DNA from: Pleurocapsales cyanobacterium LEGE 10410
GTDB taxonomy: Bacteria > Cyanobacteriota > Cyanobacteriia > Cyanobacteriales > Xenococcaceae
Length of the DNA stretch: 64,000 bases
Assembly: GCA_015207195.1 (NCBI GenBank)
Contig: JADEXJ010000010.1
Location: 1 to 64,000 of the forward strand
Direction: 5' to 3'
In this document: positions 47,497 through 55,310 of the stretch, piece after piece
Numbering within the stretch: position 1 is the first letter of the stretch
Layout: the number at the start of each line of letters is the position of its first letter
The notes under the pieces: generated by a model
What the model was told of the DNA's origin: nothing
The model's database searches: none
Seen by the model: only the letters and a program-made list of their open reading frames with translations
Made by a program: the position numbers and the translations under genes

Positions 47497-49543
47497 ATGC
47501 AGCAAGATATATATCCTAAGGATTTATCAGTATCCTTGGATAAGTTTGTACGACAGATGCACCGACTAAATAGAGCGGAAAACCCTAGATTGGTGTTTCA
47601 AATCATCACTAAGTGGACTAAAGGTCAACCTTTGCTAACTAAAAAACTTTCACAGTACGTCCTAGAATCTAAACAAAAAATTGCTCTGGGTGACGAAGCC
47701 TCTACCGTAGAAACAATCGTGCGCAATCGCTTGCTCAAAGAGTTCAAACAAGATGAATTGACTCTGCACATTAGAAAACTACTTTATGTCAAAGATTTAA
47801 GCGTGCTGCTTGAAAAAACCCAGGGCAAGATAACGAATAGGAAAAAAATTTATTTACAAAGTTTGCAAACTGAATTGGGCTTATCAGATCGACAATGCCG
47901 AACGATCAATAGCCATTATTTAGCTTTTAATTCAAGATCGAGCAATAGTTTTTCCTTACCGAGCGATAACAAAATTACCAAGATCAATCCAGAACAAGCA
48001 GACGATTATCGAGATTTAATCTCACTACTTGAAAGTTCTCCTGTAGATGGTCAGTTGGATATTGCCGATCGCACTATAAGTTTTGATTCTCAAAAGCCAG
48101 TTGCTAAAAGTTTATTAAAAACTAGAAAGTTTTGGCTGGGAATGACAACTTGTTTATTCACAATCTTATTAACCAAGTATTTGATTGGTAAAAAAAACTG
48201 GCAAAATGTTACTGCCGTAAATGTCGGGCAAACAGAAACTGGCTGCACCAATTCAATTAATCGTGAGTCGCCACGAATGAGCTGGGGAGAAAAGTTATTA
48301 GCGCAAAAACACAACAATCTTCTACCTTCAAGCAAAATTGCCTTGTATGAAGCTACCGCAGCTTTTGCCCAGTGCAAATATTCAATTGCCGAAAACAAAT
48401 TCCGAACAGCTTTAGAATTAGAAAAAAATAATCCTGAAGCTTTAATCTATCTAAATAATGCTATGGCACTCGGTCGAGATCGCCTTAAAATAGCTGTCAG
48501 CGTCCCTTTGGGAAACAAGCCAGAAATTGCTCGCGAAATTCTGCGCGGTGTGGCGCAGGTGCAGACAGAAATTAATCAGCAAGGTGGAATTAGAGGCAAT
48601 TTACTCCTGGTACAAATTGTCAACGATGATAATAACCCTGAGATTTCTCGTCAGGTAGCCAGAAAGCTAACGGCAGATCGCGATATGTTAGCGGTTATCG
48701 GACATAACGATAGCGATGCGTCTCTTGCTGCCTCAGATATTTACCAACAGCAAGGGTTTAGTGATGATTTCTCCTACTAGCTCTAGCATGGAGTTATCGG
48801 GTGTTGGTAGCTACATTATGAGAACAACGCCTAGCGTGGCGGTTTTGGCTAATGCTTTGGCAAGTTATGCTTTAGTTAGCGACTATAGTAAAGTCGCTGT
48901 CTGTTCCGATTCTAGTAGTTCTGCTAGTAGTTCTTTTGCTCGGCAATTTGTTACTGAAATTATCAAAGATAGCGGGGAGATCTTGCCCGTTGAGTGTGAC
49001 TTCGCACGAGAAGACTTGAATCCCATACCTATTATCGAACAGGCAATTGCTCAAAACGCTGATGCTTTACTCTTAGCCCCTTCTCTAGGCAAAAATTATC
49101 GAGCGATCGCGATTGCTCAGGCAAACCAACAGCGTTTACCCCTACTAGGTAATCATTCTCTTTATACCTATGAAACAATCCATGGGAAGGAGGCAGTTGC
49201 GGGAATGGTTTTAGCTGCTCCTTGGTTACCAGAGGCAACACCCAACAACGACTTTGAGCGGTCAACTATCAAATTCTGGGGTGGCAAAGTCAATTGGCGT
49301 ACAGCAATGGCTTATGATGCTGCCAAAGCTATTGTTGAAGGGTTGAAACAGTCTGATACTCGCGCTCAACTTCAGTCAGCGATGACTCAGCTCGATTTTC
49401 AGGTAGACGGGGCAACGGGTAAATTTCGGTTTAAGCAGGGCGATCGCGCTGGCAAAGTTCAGCTTGCCTACATTGCCCCACCCGACCAAAATCACTCTAA
49501 ATACTGGTTTGCCAAGCTAAATATTAACGGCAAAATCAAGTAA
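47497..49543 (+). pseudogene. Membrane-anchored amino-acid-type ABC substrate-binding protein, frameshifted
   Basis: The upstream frame (427 aa, 47497-48780) carries an N-terminal cytoplasmic region, similar by eye to the winged-helix part of AAA-like NTPases (WTKGQPLLTKKLSQYV), a membrane helix (FWLGMTTCLFTILLTKYLIG), and the first half of a Peripla_BP_6 domain (ISVPLGN-like AVSVPLGNKPEIAREIL; VIGHNDSDASLAASDIYQQQG). The second half continues in the +1 frame (LVMISPTSSSMELSG to the stop at 49543). One extra base, most likely in GGG at 48754-48756, would account for it; removing one G gives a 681 aa protein. Mutation or assembly error; both halves otherwise look conserved. Confidence 0.85.
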
Positions 49544-49974: not shown

Positions 49975-51735
49975 ATGACAAAGACAACCTCAGCAGTTAA
50001 GGTGTTTATCTCCACGTATAACTGTAAATCTCTAGCGTCTCAAAATTTAGAGAACGCTGTAGAAGCTGTCTGTAACAGCGAGCAATTTAAAAACTTGTTG
50101 CTTTCCTTGATCGACAGCCCCGCCTTTTCCGAACAACTGGGTCGAGAGTTTGCTTTAGCTGAAGCGGTAGAAGGACTATCTGCCTGTCGTAAGCTTCGCA
50201 GCAGTCTCAACCTCTCCTTGAGTAACTTTTTTGGTGTGTTGGCTGAACTTATTACTGCCTTTGATAAAACTGCTGGAAAGGAATGGTATACATTTGCCAA
50301 TAGAATACACTCTACTGAATTAGGCAAAATCAAACTTTTGGATCGCCTGTTGAACAGTTCAGAGCGAGATTTCTATCAAGATTTAGCCGAACGTCTAGTA
50401 GCAGAAAATCCTCATGCAATATATCCTACTTCCAACTACCGAGAAAGTCGCGGTTATGTTGAAAGTACCGCCGATGACCAAACCATCGAAGCAGTAGTGA
50501 GGTCTAGTACTTTTACCTCAGTAAAAGTTATCGACAATTCTCTCAACCACGAACAGTTGATGTTAAGAGATATTTACATCTCTCACGGACGCTGTGTCTG
50601 TTTAGTCGATCGCAATGTAGAGCGTTACTTTGGTGAGAAAATCGAACATTATTTCGACTATCACGGTATCAAATTGGAAAAGCTAGTATATCGTGCAATG
50701 GAAGTAGACAAAGGCATCTACACCGTTGAAAAAATGCTCGGCGACTTTAAGCGTTTGGGTGTATCTCGCAATGAACCCGTGTTAATCGTCGGTGGTGGTG
50801 TATTAGCGGATACTGGTGGACTTGCCTGCGCTTTATACCATCGCAACACGCCTTACATCATGCTATCGACATCAATCGTAGCTGGCATCGATGCAGGACC
50901 ATCCCCTCGAACCTGCTGTGATGGTTTTGGCTATAAGAATCTCTTTGGTGCCTATCACCCGCCAGTCGTGTCAATTACCGATCGTTATTTCTTCAAAACC
51001 TTAAGAGAAGGATGGTTGCGTCATGGCATTATTGAGATTATTAAAATGGCTGTAACCAAAGATGCAGAACTATTTAGCTATTTGGAACAGGCAGGACCAG
51101 ACCTGATTCAAACCCGCTTTGGTACTGTAGACTGCGAGCCAGAAGATGAGATCAACGATCTGTCTCAGAAAATTTTGGGGGCTGCTCTACGAAGCTATGT
51201 CGCTGCTGAATACGACAATATGTATGAAACACATCAATGCCGTCCTCACGCTTATGGTCATACCTGGTCACCTGGATTTGAAATCGAAGCTGGCTTACTA
51301 CACGGACACGCAGTTTCTATCGGCATGGGCTTTGGAGCTTATTTGAGCTATCGCTTGAACTGGATTGATCGAGAACAATTCCACAGAATTATGCGTTTGA
51401 TTAGCTCTTTTGGGCTGAGTCTCTGGCACGACATCATGCTCAAAACCGAAACTCTTTGGGGGTCTCAAGTGAAGATTATCCAAAAGCGTGGCGGTAATTT
51501 GGCTGCACCGTTACCTAAAGACGAAATTGGTCAATGTGGCTATCTCAACTCTCTAACTCGCGAAGAACTCGATAGCGCGATCGCCGAATATCGAGAAATT
51601 TGCGCTGAATATCCCAGAAAAGGTCTGGGTATAGAACCACACTGTAGCGATGTAGGACTAGAAGATCCTTCTACAGTAGCTCAAGCCCCAGCAGAATCTA
51701 ACCCTGTATCAGAACAAACATTATCAGCCGTGTAA
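49975..51735 (+). CDS. Sugar-phosphate cyclase (dehydroquinate-synthase-like, C7-cyclitol type)
   Basis: 586 aa. The first ~175 residues are a helical N-terminal region without a known family. Residues 180-560 form a DHQS-like cyclase: NAD loop VGGGVLADTGGLA, active-site region DAGPSPRTCCDGFGYKNLFGAY, and metal-binding Glu in HGIIEIIKMAVTKDAELF and His in AYGHTWSPGFEIEAGLLHGHAV. By eye alignment the DHQS Lys of GGKT is Arg312, while the later Lys-Asn (YKN) is kept. This points to a sedoheptulose-7-phosphate cyclase (EEVS or DDGS relative), not the shikimate-pathway enzyme. Product not predictable. It is followed 43 bp later by a DUF6492-like gene. Confidence 0.85.
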   Translation: MTKTTSAVKVFISTYNCKSLASQNLENAVEAVCNSEQFKNLLLSLIDSPAFSEQLGREFALAEAVEGLSACRKLRSSLNLSLSNFFGVLAELITAFDKTAGKEWYTFANRIHSTELGKIKLLDRLLNSSERDFYQDLAERLVAENPHAIYPTSNYRESRGYVESTADDQTIEAVVRSSTFTSVKVIDNSLNHEQLMLRDIYISHGRCVCLVDRNVERYFGEKIEHYFDYHGIKLEKLVYRAMEVDKGIYTVEKMLGDFKRLGVSRNEPVLIVGGGVLADTGGLACALYHRNTPYIMLSTSIVAGIDAGPSPRTCCDGFGYKNLFGAYHPPVVSITDRYFFKTLREGWLRHGIIEIIKMAVTKDAELFSYLEQAGPDLIQTRFGTVDCEPEDEINDLSQKILGAALRSYVAAEYDNMYETHQCRPHAYGHTWSPGFEIEAGLLHGHAVSIGMGFGAYLSYRLNWIDREQFHRIMRLISSFGLSLWHDIMLKTETLWGSQVKIIQKRGGNLAAPLPKDEIGQCGYLNSLTREELDSAIAEYREICAEYPRKGLGIEPHCSDVGLEDPSTVAQAPAESNPVSEQTLSAV

Positions 51736-51778
51736 GTCGTATAAACTAGCAGTTCGAGATTGATACTAAATAAAAATT

Positions 51779-52810
51779 ATGTCCCTAGAAGTATTTGACT
51801 TTGTTATCCCTCTTTACCGCGTACGTTGGAATACCAGAGCCGTTTTAGAGGGCATTACTACCCATTATCAGCCGAGATCGATTCATGTGATCGCTCCTGC
51901 TACTCAGGTAGAAAAACTCAAACAAGAATCTCAGAACTGGAAAATTTCTCCCCTTTATCTGTATGAAGAAGAAACTTTTTTCAATTCCGACGATTTAACT
52001 AAGGAAAAAATTTGTGCAAAACTCGATTTGGAACAGTCTCTTTATACTCCTGGTTGGTTCTATCAACAGCTATTAAAATTAGGTGCGTTTGAAGGGATTG
52101 AGAACCTCAGTGAATGGTATGTTGTTTGGGATAGCGATCTGCTTCCCGTCGATGCCTGGTCTTTGACCAAGAAACAACAACAGGCTGTTCAATACTCGTT
52201 TGCTTTACTGCAACACAATGGCTGGGGTAACGATAGCATCGTAGCTAAATGGGATAAATGGATTTCTTGCGTGCTTGGAGTTGAAGCTCAAAAAGACCAC
52301 GAAGGAACTTTTATTCCCCATCATATGTGGTTTAAACAGGAGCATCTTAAATCATTTGCCCGTCAGGTCAATAAGTACTATCAATCAAAGGAACATTGGC
52401 TTTTGTTAATAATGGATTCTGCCAACGAGTTTGGCACTTTTAGTGAATACTGGTCTTATGTATCTTGGGTAGCTGCTCACGCTCCACAAGATCTCTCTTT
52501 TCATCCTTACGAAAGCTATGGAGAAACTTCCGAAAGATTTTTTGACGACGGTACTGGTCTCTTTTCGGCAGCTTTAAAACAGCACGTGATACCTACTTCT
52601 GAAGCTGATTACTTTTATCCGTCCTACGCGGAAATAGCCTCATTTATTGAAGCAGAGTATGGTTCTGATGCCTTGCCGTCCTCTCTATCTTTTGAAAGTA
52701 GTCCCCGACATCTCAAGAAGGATGAAAAGAATATGCACATTGAGGAATTACGCTCTCGCTGGAATCCTAGAGATACAGACACAGCAGAATCTGAGCGAAA
52801 TGTAGCTTAA
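51779..52810 (+). CDS. DUF6492-like, glycosyltransferase-like protein
   Basis: 343 aa, soluble. It starts LEVFDFVIPLYRVRWN, continues with a central WYVVWDSDLLPVD (a DxD-like acidic motif) and contains PHHMWFKQEHL and FGTFSEYWSYVSWV. The pattern fits the DUF6492 group of nucleotide-sugar-using proteins. It lies 43 bp after the cyclase, so it probably modifies the same product. Exact family membership is by eye. Confidence 0.7.
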   Translation: MSLEVFDFVIPLYRVRWNTRAVLEGITTHYQPRSIHVIAPATQVEKLKQESQNWKISPLYLYEEETFFNSDDLTKEKICAKLDLEQSLYTPGWFYQQLLKLGAFEGIENLSEWYVVWDSDLLPVDAWSLTKKQQQAVQYSFALLQHNGWGNDSIVAKWDKWISCVLGVEAQKDHEGTFIPHHMWFKQEHLKSFARQVNKYYQSKEHWLLLIMDSANEFGTFSEYWSYVSWVAAHAPQDLSFHPYESYGETSERFFDDGTGLFSAALKQHVIPTSEADYFYPSYAEIASFIEAEYGSDALPSSLSFESSPRHLKKDEKNMHIEELRSRWNPRDTDTAESERNVA

Positions 52811-53262: not shown

Positions 53263-54234
53263 ATGAGATTTGAATTTGTAGACTTGTTCGCTGGTATTGG
53301 GGGCATGAGACTCAGTTTTGAAAACATAGGAGCAAAGTGCGTTTTCTCATCCGAATGGGATAAATACGCTCAAGATACATATGAAGCGAACTTTGGAGAA
53401 CGTCCCAATGGCGATATTACCAAAATATCTTCTAAAGAAATTCCTAAACATGATATTTTATTGGCTGGATTTCCCTGCCAGGCATTTAGCATTTGTGGCG
53501 AGCAAAAAGGTTTTTTAGATACTAGAGGCACTTTGTTTTTTAATATTGAAAAAATCATTAAAGCCCAAAAACCATATAGTTTTTTATTAGAAAATGTTAA
53601 AAATTTAAAATCTCACGACCAGGGAAGAACTTTTGCAACTATTATCAATCGTTTGGAAACTTTAGGATACTTTGTTCATCACAGTATTCTAAATTCCCTG
53701 GACTTTGGTATTCCTCAAAAAAGAGAAAGAACTATAATTGTAGGCTTTAGAGAAAATATTACATTCTCATTCCCTAAACCATTAACTATTAAACCAGATT
53801 TATCGACAATACTAGAAAATGATTCAGAAATTGATCCTAAGTTTTTTGTTTCTCCAGAAATAAAAAGAAAAAGATTTTCAAAAGTCAAACCCAACTATCC
53901 GACCCCCTCTATTTGGCATGAAAATAAAAGTGGTAATATTTCTGCGCTTGAGTACTCTTGCGCTTTGAGAGCAGGAGCATCTTATAACTATCTTTTAGTA
54001 AATGGAATAAGAAGACTAACTCCCAGAGAATTGCTTCGCCTTCAAGGTTTTCCCGATACATTTAAAGTTGTCGTTCCTTACAGTCAAATTAGAAAACAAA
54101 CAGGCAATAGTGTCACCGTACCTGTTATTCAAGCCGTAGCAGAACAAATGCTTGTGAGCATTGAATCAAAATTACCTGCTGCACCAAAGTATATACAGCA
54201 AGAATTATGGCAAACAGTTCGTCCAGTAACTTAG
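53263..54234 (+). CDS. DNA cytosine-5 methyltransferase (M.HaeII-like)
   Basis: 323 aa. All main m5C motifs are present: I DLFAGIGGMRLSFE, IV catalytic GFPCQAFS (Cys nucleophile), VI ENVKNL, VIII QKRERTIIVGF, and the C-terminal IX/X RLTPRELLRLQGFPD and RKQTGNSVTVPVI. Length and partner suggest the HaeII type (recognition RGCGCY), which is inference. Composition is lower in G+C than neighbouring genes, and it overlaps the nuclease gene by 28 bp. Confidence 0.9.
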   Translation: MRFEFVDLFAGIGGMRLSFENIGAKCVFSSEWDKYAQDTYEANFGERPNGDITKISSKEIPKHDILLAGFPCQAFSICGEQKGFLDTRGTLFFNIEKIIKAQKPYSFLLENVKNLKSHDQGRTFATIINRLETLGYFVHHSILNSLDFGIPQKRERTIIVGFRENITFSFPKPLTIKPDLSTILENDSEIDPKFFVSPEIKRKRFSKVKPNYPTPSIWHENKSGNISALEYSCALRAGASYNYLLVNGIRRLTPRELLRLQGFPDTFKVVVPYSQIRKQTGNSVTVPVIQAVAEQMLVSIESKLPAAPKYIQQELWQTVRPVT

Positions 54235-55310
54235 AAGATGCTCGACAGGCTCTTGATTCAATTATCAAAAAATCTAGAATACATTTTTACAAACCAATTC
54301 AAATTGCCGAAATTTTATTTGAACACAGAGTCAAAGGCAAAATCGATCTTAACAATTTAGAAGATTATAGAAACAATTCTAAAAAATGGCGTGATGGAAT
54401 CACTCAAAAGTTCCTCGGTCGAATTTGTACTTCAAGCGCAAAGTTTCAAGATAATTTGTTTGAAACTAATGCAATGCCTCCCAAACTACTTTCAATATTG
54501 GGTGATTTTAATCGACAAGGAAATGGAATTGTAGAAGCCCATATCTACAAATCATTCTCTGATAAATATCTACAATTAAATAGAGGATTAAACTATTGTC
54601 TTAATTCTTAACCTAATACATTTTATTTAGATGAATTTATTAATTTGTTTTGGAGTGAACCAGGATTAAAAAGATCTATCGATAAGGTATTTGAAATAAT
54701 TGTTTATTCGCTTTTTGAAACTATTGTTACTAGTGCAGCTATAAAAATTGAAATTAATGCTAAAGATCCCAATCGAATTTTAACGGAATTTCCAGAATTT
54801 GCTGAAAAAGTTCTGGGATTTGACAAGCAAAACCGTAATTTATCGCTCGATGCGCATTTTCATCGCGTAGGGGTAACCAATGCTGCTGATCGCGGATTAG
54901 ATATTTTCGCTAACTTTGGTTCTGTGGTGCAAGTTAAACATTTAAATTTATCTGAAGAAATAGCAGAAGGAGTAGCCGAAACAATTACATCCAACAAAAT
55001 TGTCATCGTGTGTAAAAATGTCGAGGCTAGAGTAATCAATTCACTATTAACTCAAATTGGATGGCGATCGCGTATTCAGGCAATAATTACTATTGAAGAA
55101 TTAACTGATTGGTACGAACGAGCCTTAATAGGTAACCGTTCTCATTTATTGGCGGATAAGCTACTAAGAAATATGAGAGAACAAATTCAATTAGAGTTCC
55201 CTTCAGTTGGCAATGATAAATTTGCTGATTTTATTAAAAGTAGAAACTATCATCGAGTTGATTATGCTGATTGGAAATCATTTTGCTCCGAGCAAAACTA
55301 CGGAACATAG
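54207..55310 (+). pseudogene. HaeII-like type II restriction endonuclease with an in-frame stop
   Basis: Start ATG at 54207 inside the end of the methyltransferase gene. The frame runs 134 codons to TAA at 54609-54611 (after RGLNYCLNS), then continues open in the same frame to 55310 (PNTFYLDEFINLFWSEPGLK onward). Removing the stop gives about 367 aa, close to HaeII-family length. The first part (QALDSIIKKSRIHFYKPIQIAEILFEHR) and the second (ADRGLDIFANFGSVVQVKHLN) look like a HaeII nuclease. The DxFxxxxxxVQVKH segment probably contains the catalytic acids and Lys. A single nonsense mutation thus separates the N terminus from the catalytic part. Confidence 0.8.

Follow-up and report, generated by a model that had tools for sequence, protein, structure and literature searches.

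In a window of 64,000 nucleotides from the Pleurocapsales cyanobacterium LEGE 10410 (contig JADEXJ010000010.1, positions 1 to 64,000; all coordinates refer to this window), two adjacent genes on the forward strand encode a long sugar-phosphate cyclase of 586 amino acids (49975..51735) and, after a spacer of 43 bp (51736..51778), a DUF6492 protein of 343 amino acids (51779..52810), with lengths and positions as given by the initial annotation. The cyclase is not AroB; within the MysA/DDGS branch it forms a third class, distinguished by its length and new for this known kind of enzyme, and its partner is a predicted GT-A-fold sugar or sugar-1-phosphate transferase. We rate the chances as slightly better than even that this divergent MysA makes a cyclitol of the desmethyl-4-deoxygadusol type, that the DUF6492 protein adds a sugar or sugar-phosphate to it, and that MysB and MysC share the same product.

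The assignment of the cyclase is based on domain content, structural similarity and phylogeny. Pfam detected DHQ_synthase and DHQS_C in the open reading frame (ORF), and the best solved relative by sequence was 5tpr, the DDGS of Anabaena variabilis (E 1.4e-77). The same structure ranked first against the cyclase model (mean pLDDT 85.3; compared over residues 157-549), with a Z score of 51.7 and a root-mean-square deviation of 1.9 over 380 residues at 35% identity, followed by the EEVS ValA (Z 45.4) and 3-dehydroquinate synthases (DHQS; Z up to 39.1). In an alignment of 32 long cyclases (A2), the residues Glu354, His429 and His443, whose positions we take to be the metal ligands of sugar-phosphate cyclases, were kept in every member. 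The presumed ligand His429 lies in the aligned segment AYGHTWSP (residues 426-433; 51250..51273, forward strand), of which A426, H429 and P433 are identical in all 32 sequences. Residue 426 is presumably the first of two sites that tell DDGS (Ala) from EEVS (Asp), and here all 32 long cyclases carry the DDGS-type Ala, whereas ValA carries Asp; the second site, which we assume to be residue 504, would be Thr in DDGS and His in EEVS. The available passages of PMC4426668 do not name these fingerprint residues. A further aligned motif, DAGPSPRTCCDG (residues 306-317; 50890..50925, forward strand), corresponds to DA(S/G)(V/I)AIKVAVN in classic DDGS and DAGIGAKTGVN in ValA, so that PRTCCDG stands where classic DDGS has IKVAVN, with D306, R312 and D316 identical in 32/32 long cyclases.

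The model of the whole protein further contains an all-helical N-terminal domain at about residues 1-150 (49975..50430, forward strand). The long N-terminal extension reported in the initial annotation is therefore present, but measures about 150 instead of about 175 amino acids, as alignment with solved cyclases begins near residue 154-169. The domain was folded only within the whole protein, and the comparison to known structures began at residue 157; nothing usable was returned by a Pfam search with three members (E up to 5) or by a search of the domain profile against PDB sequences (best E 0.29). Twenty-two of these domains were aligned (A3). Among 388 cyanobacterial genomes the profile matched in 41, and these are exactly the genomes with a long cyclase; the sole copy seen apart from a cyclase was a decayed remnant in genome G223.

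In these 388 genomes, where the best candidates per genome were scored (up to three for the cyclase, four for MysC, five for DUF6492 and nine for the N-terminal domain), a cyclase match at E <= 1e-60 was found in 97. Classes were assigned from identity values: the long class in 41 genomes (67-100%), an intermediate class of about 450 amino acids in 11 (43-47%), including G003, which also has the long class, and the classic class alone in 46 (35-39%). A tree of 67 sequences, computed without L144, whose row in the cyclase alignment stemmed from a misread ORF, recovered the long and intermediate classes as sisters with classic DDGS outside, and the nearest relatives of the window cyclase were Myxosarcina and Pleurocapsa records. 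Neighbouring mysB/mysC genes were seen for all three classes. The intermediate class (L140-L149), which is distinct from classic DDGS, carries the motif DAGPSPRTCTNG and lies in mysABC(D) clusters, and we did not find it named in the literature passages available. All MysC and cyclase candidates were scored in 46 genomes with named loci, a subset of 58 public loci (omitted were L046, L050, L057, L065, L071, L073, L079, L081, L084, L087, L088 and L090). Other cyclase matches at E <= 1e-20 in these 46 genomes were weak (26-32% identity), except for one intermediate MysA in G412 and an N-terminal domain remnant in G415.

In one respect the initial annotation needs correction or completion, as it had set a mycosporine link aside for want of an adjacent mys gene: the cyclase groups with MysA, and 13 of the 58 public loci have mysB, mysC or both next to it. 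Two of these are cyanobacterial (L053 and L063), one is labelled Flammeovirgaceae (L072) and ten are labelled Proteobacteria or Planctomycetes. At nine of the 13 loci, mysD, a HAD hydrolase gene or a gene for a TauD-type dioxygenase is present as well, and L072 combines mysB, mysC, mysD, the cyclase and DUF6492 in one cluster. Across mys clusters, whether the MysA is long or of another class, HAD hydrolases and/or TauD-type dioxygenases are found repeatedly (L072, L075, L078-L080, L083, L085, L088, L089, L144 and L172).

A lack of mycosporine partners, as initially described, holds within the window but not for the genome, in which MysC and MysB searches located a mysB-mysC-OMT operon on another contig (C305). 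The 14 kb retrieved around this operon gave no match to a long, intermediate or classic cyclase at 1e-12; the genome yielded no MysA candidate other than the long cyclase. In L053 and L063, mysB-mysC-OMT follows in the same order directly 3' of the long cyclase; an additional OMT next to MysABC has been noted earlier (PMC7826186, in the passages available). Hyella patelloides LEGE 07179 and Pleurocapsa CCALA 161 likewise lack a cyclase in the mysB-mysC stretches retrieved and have the long cyclase on another contig. According to the available passages of PMC8472315, Pleurocapsales mys clusters are devoid of mysA except in Myxosarcina sp. GI1 and Stanieria, as well as in Hyella disjuncta PCC 6712, the query of that study, which also keeps mysA, and mysA-like homologues occur elsewhere with unknown involvement. 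For the mysA that these clusters lack, the long cyclase is a good candidate.

The second line of evidence concerns the partner gene. A tblastn count over the 58 public loci placed DUF6492 directly 3' of the long cyclase, in the same orientation, 40 times, with gaps of 3-827 nt and a median of 74. Thus, the pair is conserved, which is the opposite of the outcome that the initial annotation had named as fatal to its candidate for an undescribed pathway, and the pathway is probably undescribed. This DUF6492 subfamily was found in 37 of the 388 genomes, namely in 36 of the 41 long-cyclase genomes and in G368 (70% complete); the 56 genomes whose MysA belongs to other classes only did not contain it. 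MysC, in contrast, matched in 55 of those 56 genomes versus 8 of the 41 long-cyclase genomes (one on a fragment), where absence denotes no match at 1e-60 in the 388 genomes or at 1e-40 in the named-locus genomes and several genomes are incomplete. MysB at >=59% identity was present in 7 of 42 genomes tested, all of which also have MysC. The 41 long-cyclase genomes divide into 5 with both partners, 31 with DUF6492 only, 3 with MysC only and 2 with neither, and the window genome is not among the 31. A MysC match without a cyclase match at 1e-60 was seen in G037, G288, G306 and G318 of the same genome set. In the named-locus genomes, DUF6492 stood beside the cyclase in 28 of 28 genomes without MysC versus 5 of 18 with MysC (Fisher p 8e-8, a value inflated by the relatedness of the genomes). 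In this contrast L034 was scored DUF6492-negative, even though only 244 bases of contig follow its cyclase, and G412/L060 was scored MysC-positive on a 130-amino-acid fragment, as was G003 in the 41-genome count; dropping or moving L034 and G412/L060 left the direction of the pattern unchanged.

Two genomes suggest a common product for both partners. In G223 and G141 the long cyclase, the only one found, lies by mysB and mysC, and DUF6492 is encoded elsewhere. These lone DUF6492 genes are intact, 62-63% identical to the window gene, and constrained, with a ratio of nonsynonymous to synonymous substitution rates (dN/dS) of 0.11 between the two genomes. In G223, a decayed N-terminal domain with stops lies directly 5' of the intact DUF6492 gene (L168:4261-4668, minus strand); the 8.5 kb retrieved there showed no catalytic cyclase part, and no cyclase remnant was found by the lone gene of G141. 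The simplest reading is that the pair lost its own cyclase once the mys-linked cyclase supplied the same product in trans, which suggests that DUF6492 and MysB/MysC draw on the same product.

For the DUF6492 protein, Pfam assigned PF20102 (35.8 bits, gathering score 22.9), and the model (mean pLDDT 84.8) adopts a GT-A fold, in line with the glycosyltransferase-like partner of a C7-cyclitol-type cyclase that had been proposed initially; the MysA/DDGS grouping agrees with the cyclase half of that proposal. The best structural matches were the stealth protein CpsY (Z 15.4) and the GlcNAc-1-phosphotransferase GNPTAB (about 14), with GT-A glycosyltransferases at Z 11.6 and below. The model thereby places the protein closest to sugar-phosphate transferases, and transfer of either a sugar or a sugar-1-phosphate would be possible. 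Alignment A1 comprised 33 sequences, the window protein plus 32 members drawn from the 40 public DUF6492 genes; PF20102 matched 32 of the 33, other Pfam families one to three each, and the profile gave no match among PDB sequences up to E 1. All 33 contain D.DLLP, in which DSD (residues 118-120; 52130..52138, forward strand) is presumably the DxD-type motif of GT-A enzymes. The tetrapeptide C[LI]ND of region CR4, the stealth motif according to the available passages of PMC10668966, was found in 0/33 members, for which reason we do not assign the protein to the stealth family. Other DUF6492 subfamilies are common in the class: counting this subfamily too, 48 of 291 genomes have a PF20102 match.

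Taken together, these data are consistent with a scheme in which the long cyclase, as an NAD- and metal-dependent enzyme, would take up sedoheptulose 7-phosphate and form desmethyl-4-deoxygadusol or a closely related cyclitol of the C7 type, a substrate and product to which the fold, the tree and the mys linkage point. The DUF6492 protein would then use a nucleotide sugar as donor and attach its sugar (or sugar-1-phosphate) moiety to the cyclase product, a role, donor and acceptor suggested by its predicted fold, its adjacency and its co-occurrence with the cyclase. In the window genome, the cyclase would also feed the mysB-mysC-OMT operon on the other contig, so that one cyclase could serve two branches, one to mycosporines and one to a glycosylated cyclitol. 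Carriers of DUF6492 without MysC would possess a two-step route to an undescribed glycoside with a UV-absorbing, antioxidant or osmoprotective function.

Several observations weigh against this scheme. At the presumed second fingerprint site all 32 long cyclases have Lys504 instead of the DDGS Thr, with His in ValA, and the Lys of classic DDGS (KVAVN) is replaced by the invariant Arg312; with both residues invariant, the product may differ from that of DDGS, and we came across no published activity of a long-class enzyme. Two long-cyclase genomes, G312 and G059, have neither partner, although the cyclase is cut off in one and in pieces in the other. The contrast of MysC and DUF6492 reduces to about six phylogenetically independent cases, for which a sign test is not significant (p 0.25-0.5). 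A GT-A fold alone identifies neither donor nor acceptor, and the seven neighbours of three other DUF6492 genes revealed no clear sugar pathway (hexapeptide proteins by one). Moreover, Myxosarcina sp. GI1 keeps a clustered mysA (PMC8472315, in the passages available), yet the nearest relative in our data is a Myxosarcina metagenome-assembled genome.

A more far-reaching version, to which we give tentative credence at rather less than even chances, regards the pair as a complete, MysB/MysC-independent pathway to a new class of glycosylated or sugar-phosphate-linked desmethyl-4-deoxygadusol, with the N-terminal domain steering the product to the partner. The compound would then be a gadusol-type glycoside without an amino acid, spread over cyanobacteria that resemble Leptolyngbya, Nodosilinea, Xenococcus and Pleurocapsa and showed no MysC.

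The principal alternative is that the cyclase makes another C7 cyclitol, of the 2-epi-valiolone type or new, and that the pair is unrelated to mycosporine chemistry. A different cyclitol is conceivable in view of the altered active site, whose motif departs from classic DDGS at invariant positions, and 33 of the 41 long-cyclase genomes gave no MysC match. However, 11 of the 13 mys-linked genomes were searched and none showed another MysA, the sister class with its nearly identical motif was accompanied by a MysC match in 11/11 genomes, and the Asp typical of EEVS is Ala in the long cyclase. We therefore consider this explanation unlikely, though it deserves to be kept in mind at perhaps one chance in a handful.

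Less probable still is an ordinary MysA that acts in trans, with DUF6492 as a tailoring enzyme that glycosylates finished mycosporines. Glycosylated mycosporines and the transferases MysG and MysJ are known (PMC11378024, in the passages available), and the window genome has both partners, while L072 has all genes together; yet DUF6492 occurs without a MysC match in 31 of the 41 long-cyclase genomes, MysB is found in only 7 of 42, and this DUF6492 is absent from all 56 genomes that have only MysA of the other classes, although 55 of these have MysC. It appears improbable that DUF6492 acts on cell-surface polysaccharides or as a stealth-type enzyme and that adjacency reflects shared regulation and not a pathway: CpsY and GNPTAB are its nearest folds, but C[LI]ND is missing, co-occurrence with a single cyclase class is near-perfect, and no third gene family, mys-type clusters aside, recurs in more than 8 of 59 stretches (families without annotation). 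A spare DHQS for the shikimate pathway is very hard to sustain despite the DHQS Pfam domains, as the cyclase groups with DDGS in the tree and scores 131.8 bits against an aroB cut-off of 305 (NCBIfam TIGR01357), and the genome holds a separate AroB above the curated cut-off (404.6 bits) as well as a second DHQS-family gene of the PRK06203 family (L002, G000:C63; 608 bits, cut-off 333). An identity as AroB was rejected on the basis of the sub-cut-off score and the separate AroB.

Compared with close relatives, dN/dS was 0.05-0.06 for the cyclase (L037, L033) and 0.08 for DUF6492 (L037), values that are rough because dS amounts to 1.3-1.9; comparisons with L059 were saturated. On the 5' side of the pair (47497-49543) lies a periplasmic/substrate-binding-protein-like gene broken into two ORFs that overlap and differ in reading frame. 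On the 3' side (53263-55310) are HaeII-type restriction-modification genes, with an open methylase frame and an endonuclease (PF09554) in two same-frame pieces split by a TAA at 54609-54611.

If true, the two-gene pathway would be new. The available passages of the open-licence PMC literature describe neither a long MysA form nor a DUF6492 partner, the term "DUF6492" occurs in none of the open-licence PMC papers searched, and the passages of PMC9918943, PMC13131328 and PMC12967839 contain nothing bearing on the long form. Besides offering a candidate for the mysA reported missing from most Pleurocapsales mys clusters (PMC8472315, in the passages available), the results point to a widespread sunscreen-type first step in cyanobacteria whose genomes did not show the remainder of the mycosporine pathway; screens for mysABC only would thus miss this step. 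With two genes and one substrate, the hypothesis is cheap to test.

Among known systems, the long cyclase resembles the DDGS Ava_3858 (PDB 5tpr) in fold, in the aligned metal ligands, in AYGHTWSP and, for some relatives, in the proximity of mysB/mysC, but it differs in its helical N-terminal domain of about 150 amino acids, in carrying DAGPSPRTCCDG in place of DASVAIKVAVN, and in its usual partner, which is DUF6492 and not MysB/MysC. With the MysA class of about 450 amino acids (L140-L149) it shares a sister-clade relationship, the comparable motif DAGPSPRTCTNG and Lys at the 504 position; unlike the long class, that class has no N-terminal domain match, and this DUF6492 accompanies it only in G003, which has both cyclase classes. 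The predicted DUF6492 fold and its acidic D.D motif recall CpsY/GlcNAc-1-phosphotransferase (stealth) and GT-A glycosyltransferases, although identity to the stealth-type matches is only 7-10% and C[LI]ND is lacking. A parallel with MysG and MysJ is sugar transfer in mycosporine-type chemistry, which the available passages of PMC11378024 report for MysG1 and which we propose here; by their descriptions the enzymes are set apart, MysG1 as glycosyltransferase family 4, MysJ1 as a beta-1,6-N-acetylglucosaminyltransferase homologue and DUF6492 as PF20102. Finally, while the available passages of PMC8472315 describe no long form, N-terminal domain or DUF6492 partner, the mysA-less Pleurocapsales mys clusters reported there mirror the situation in the window genome.

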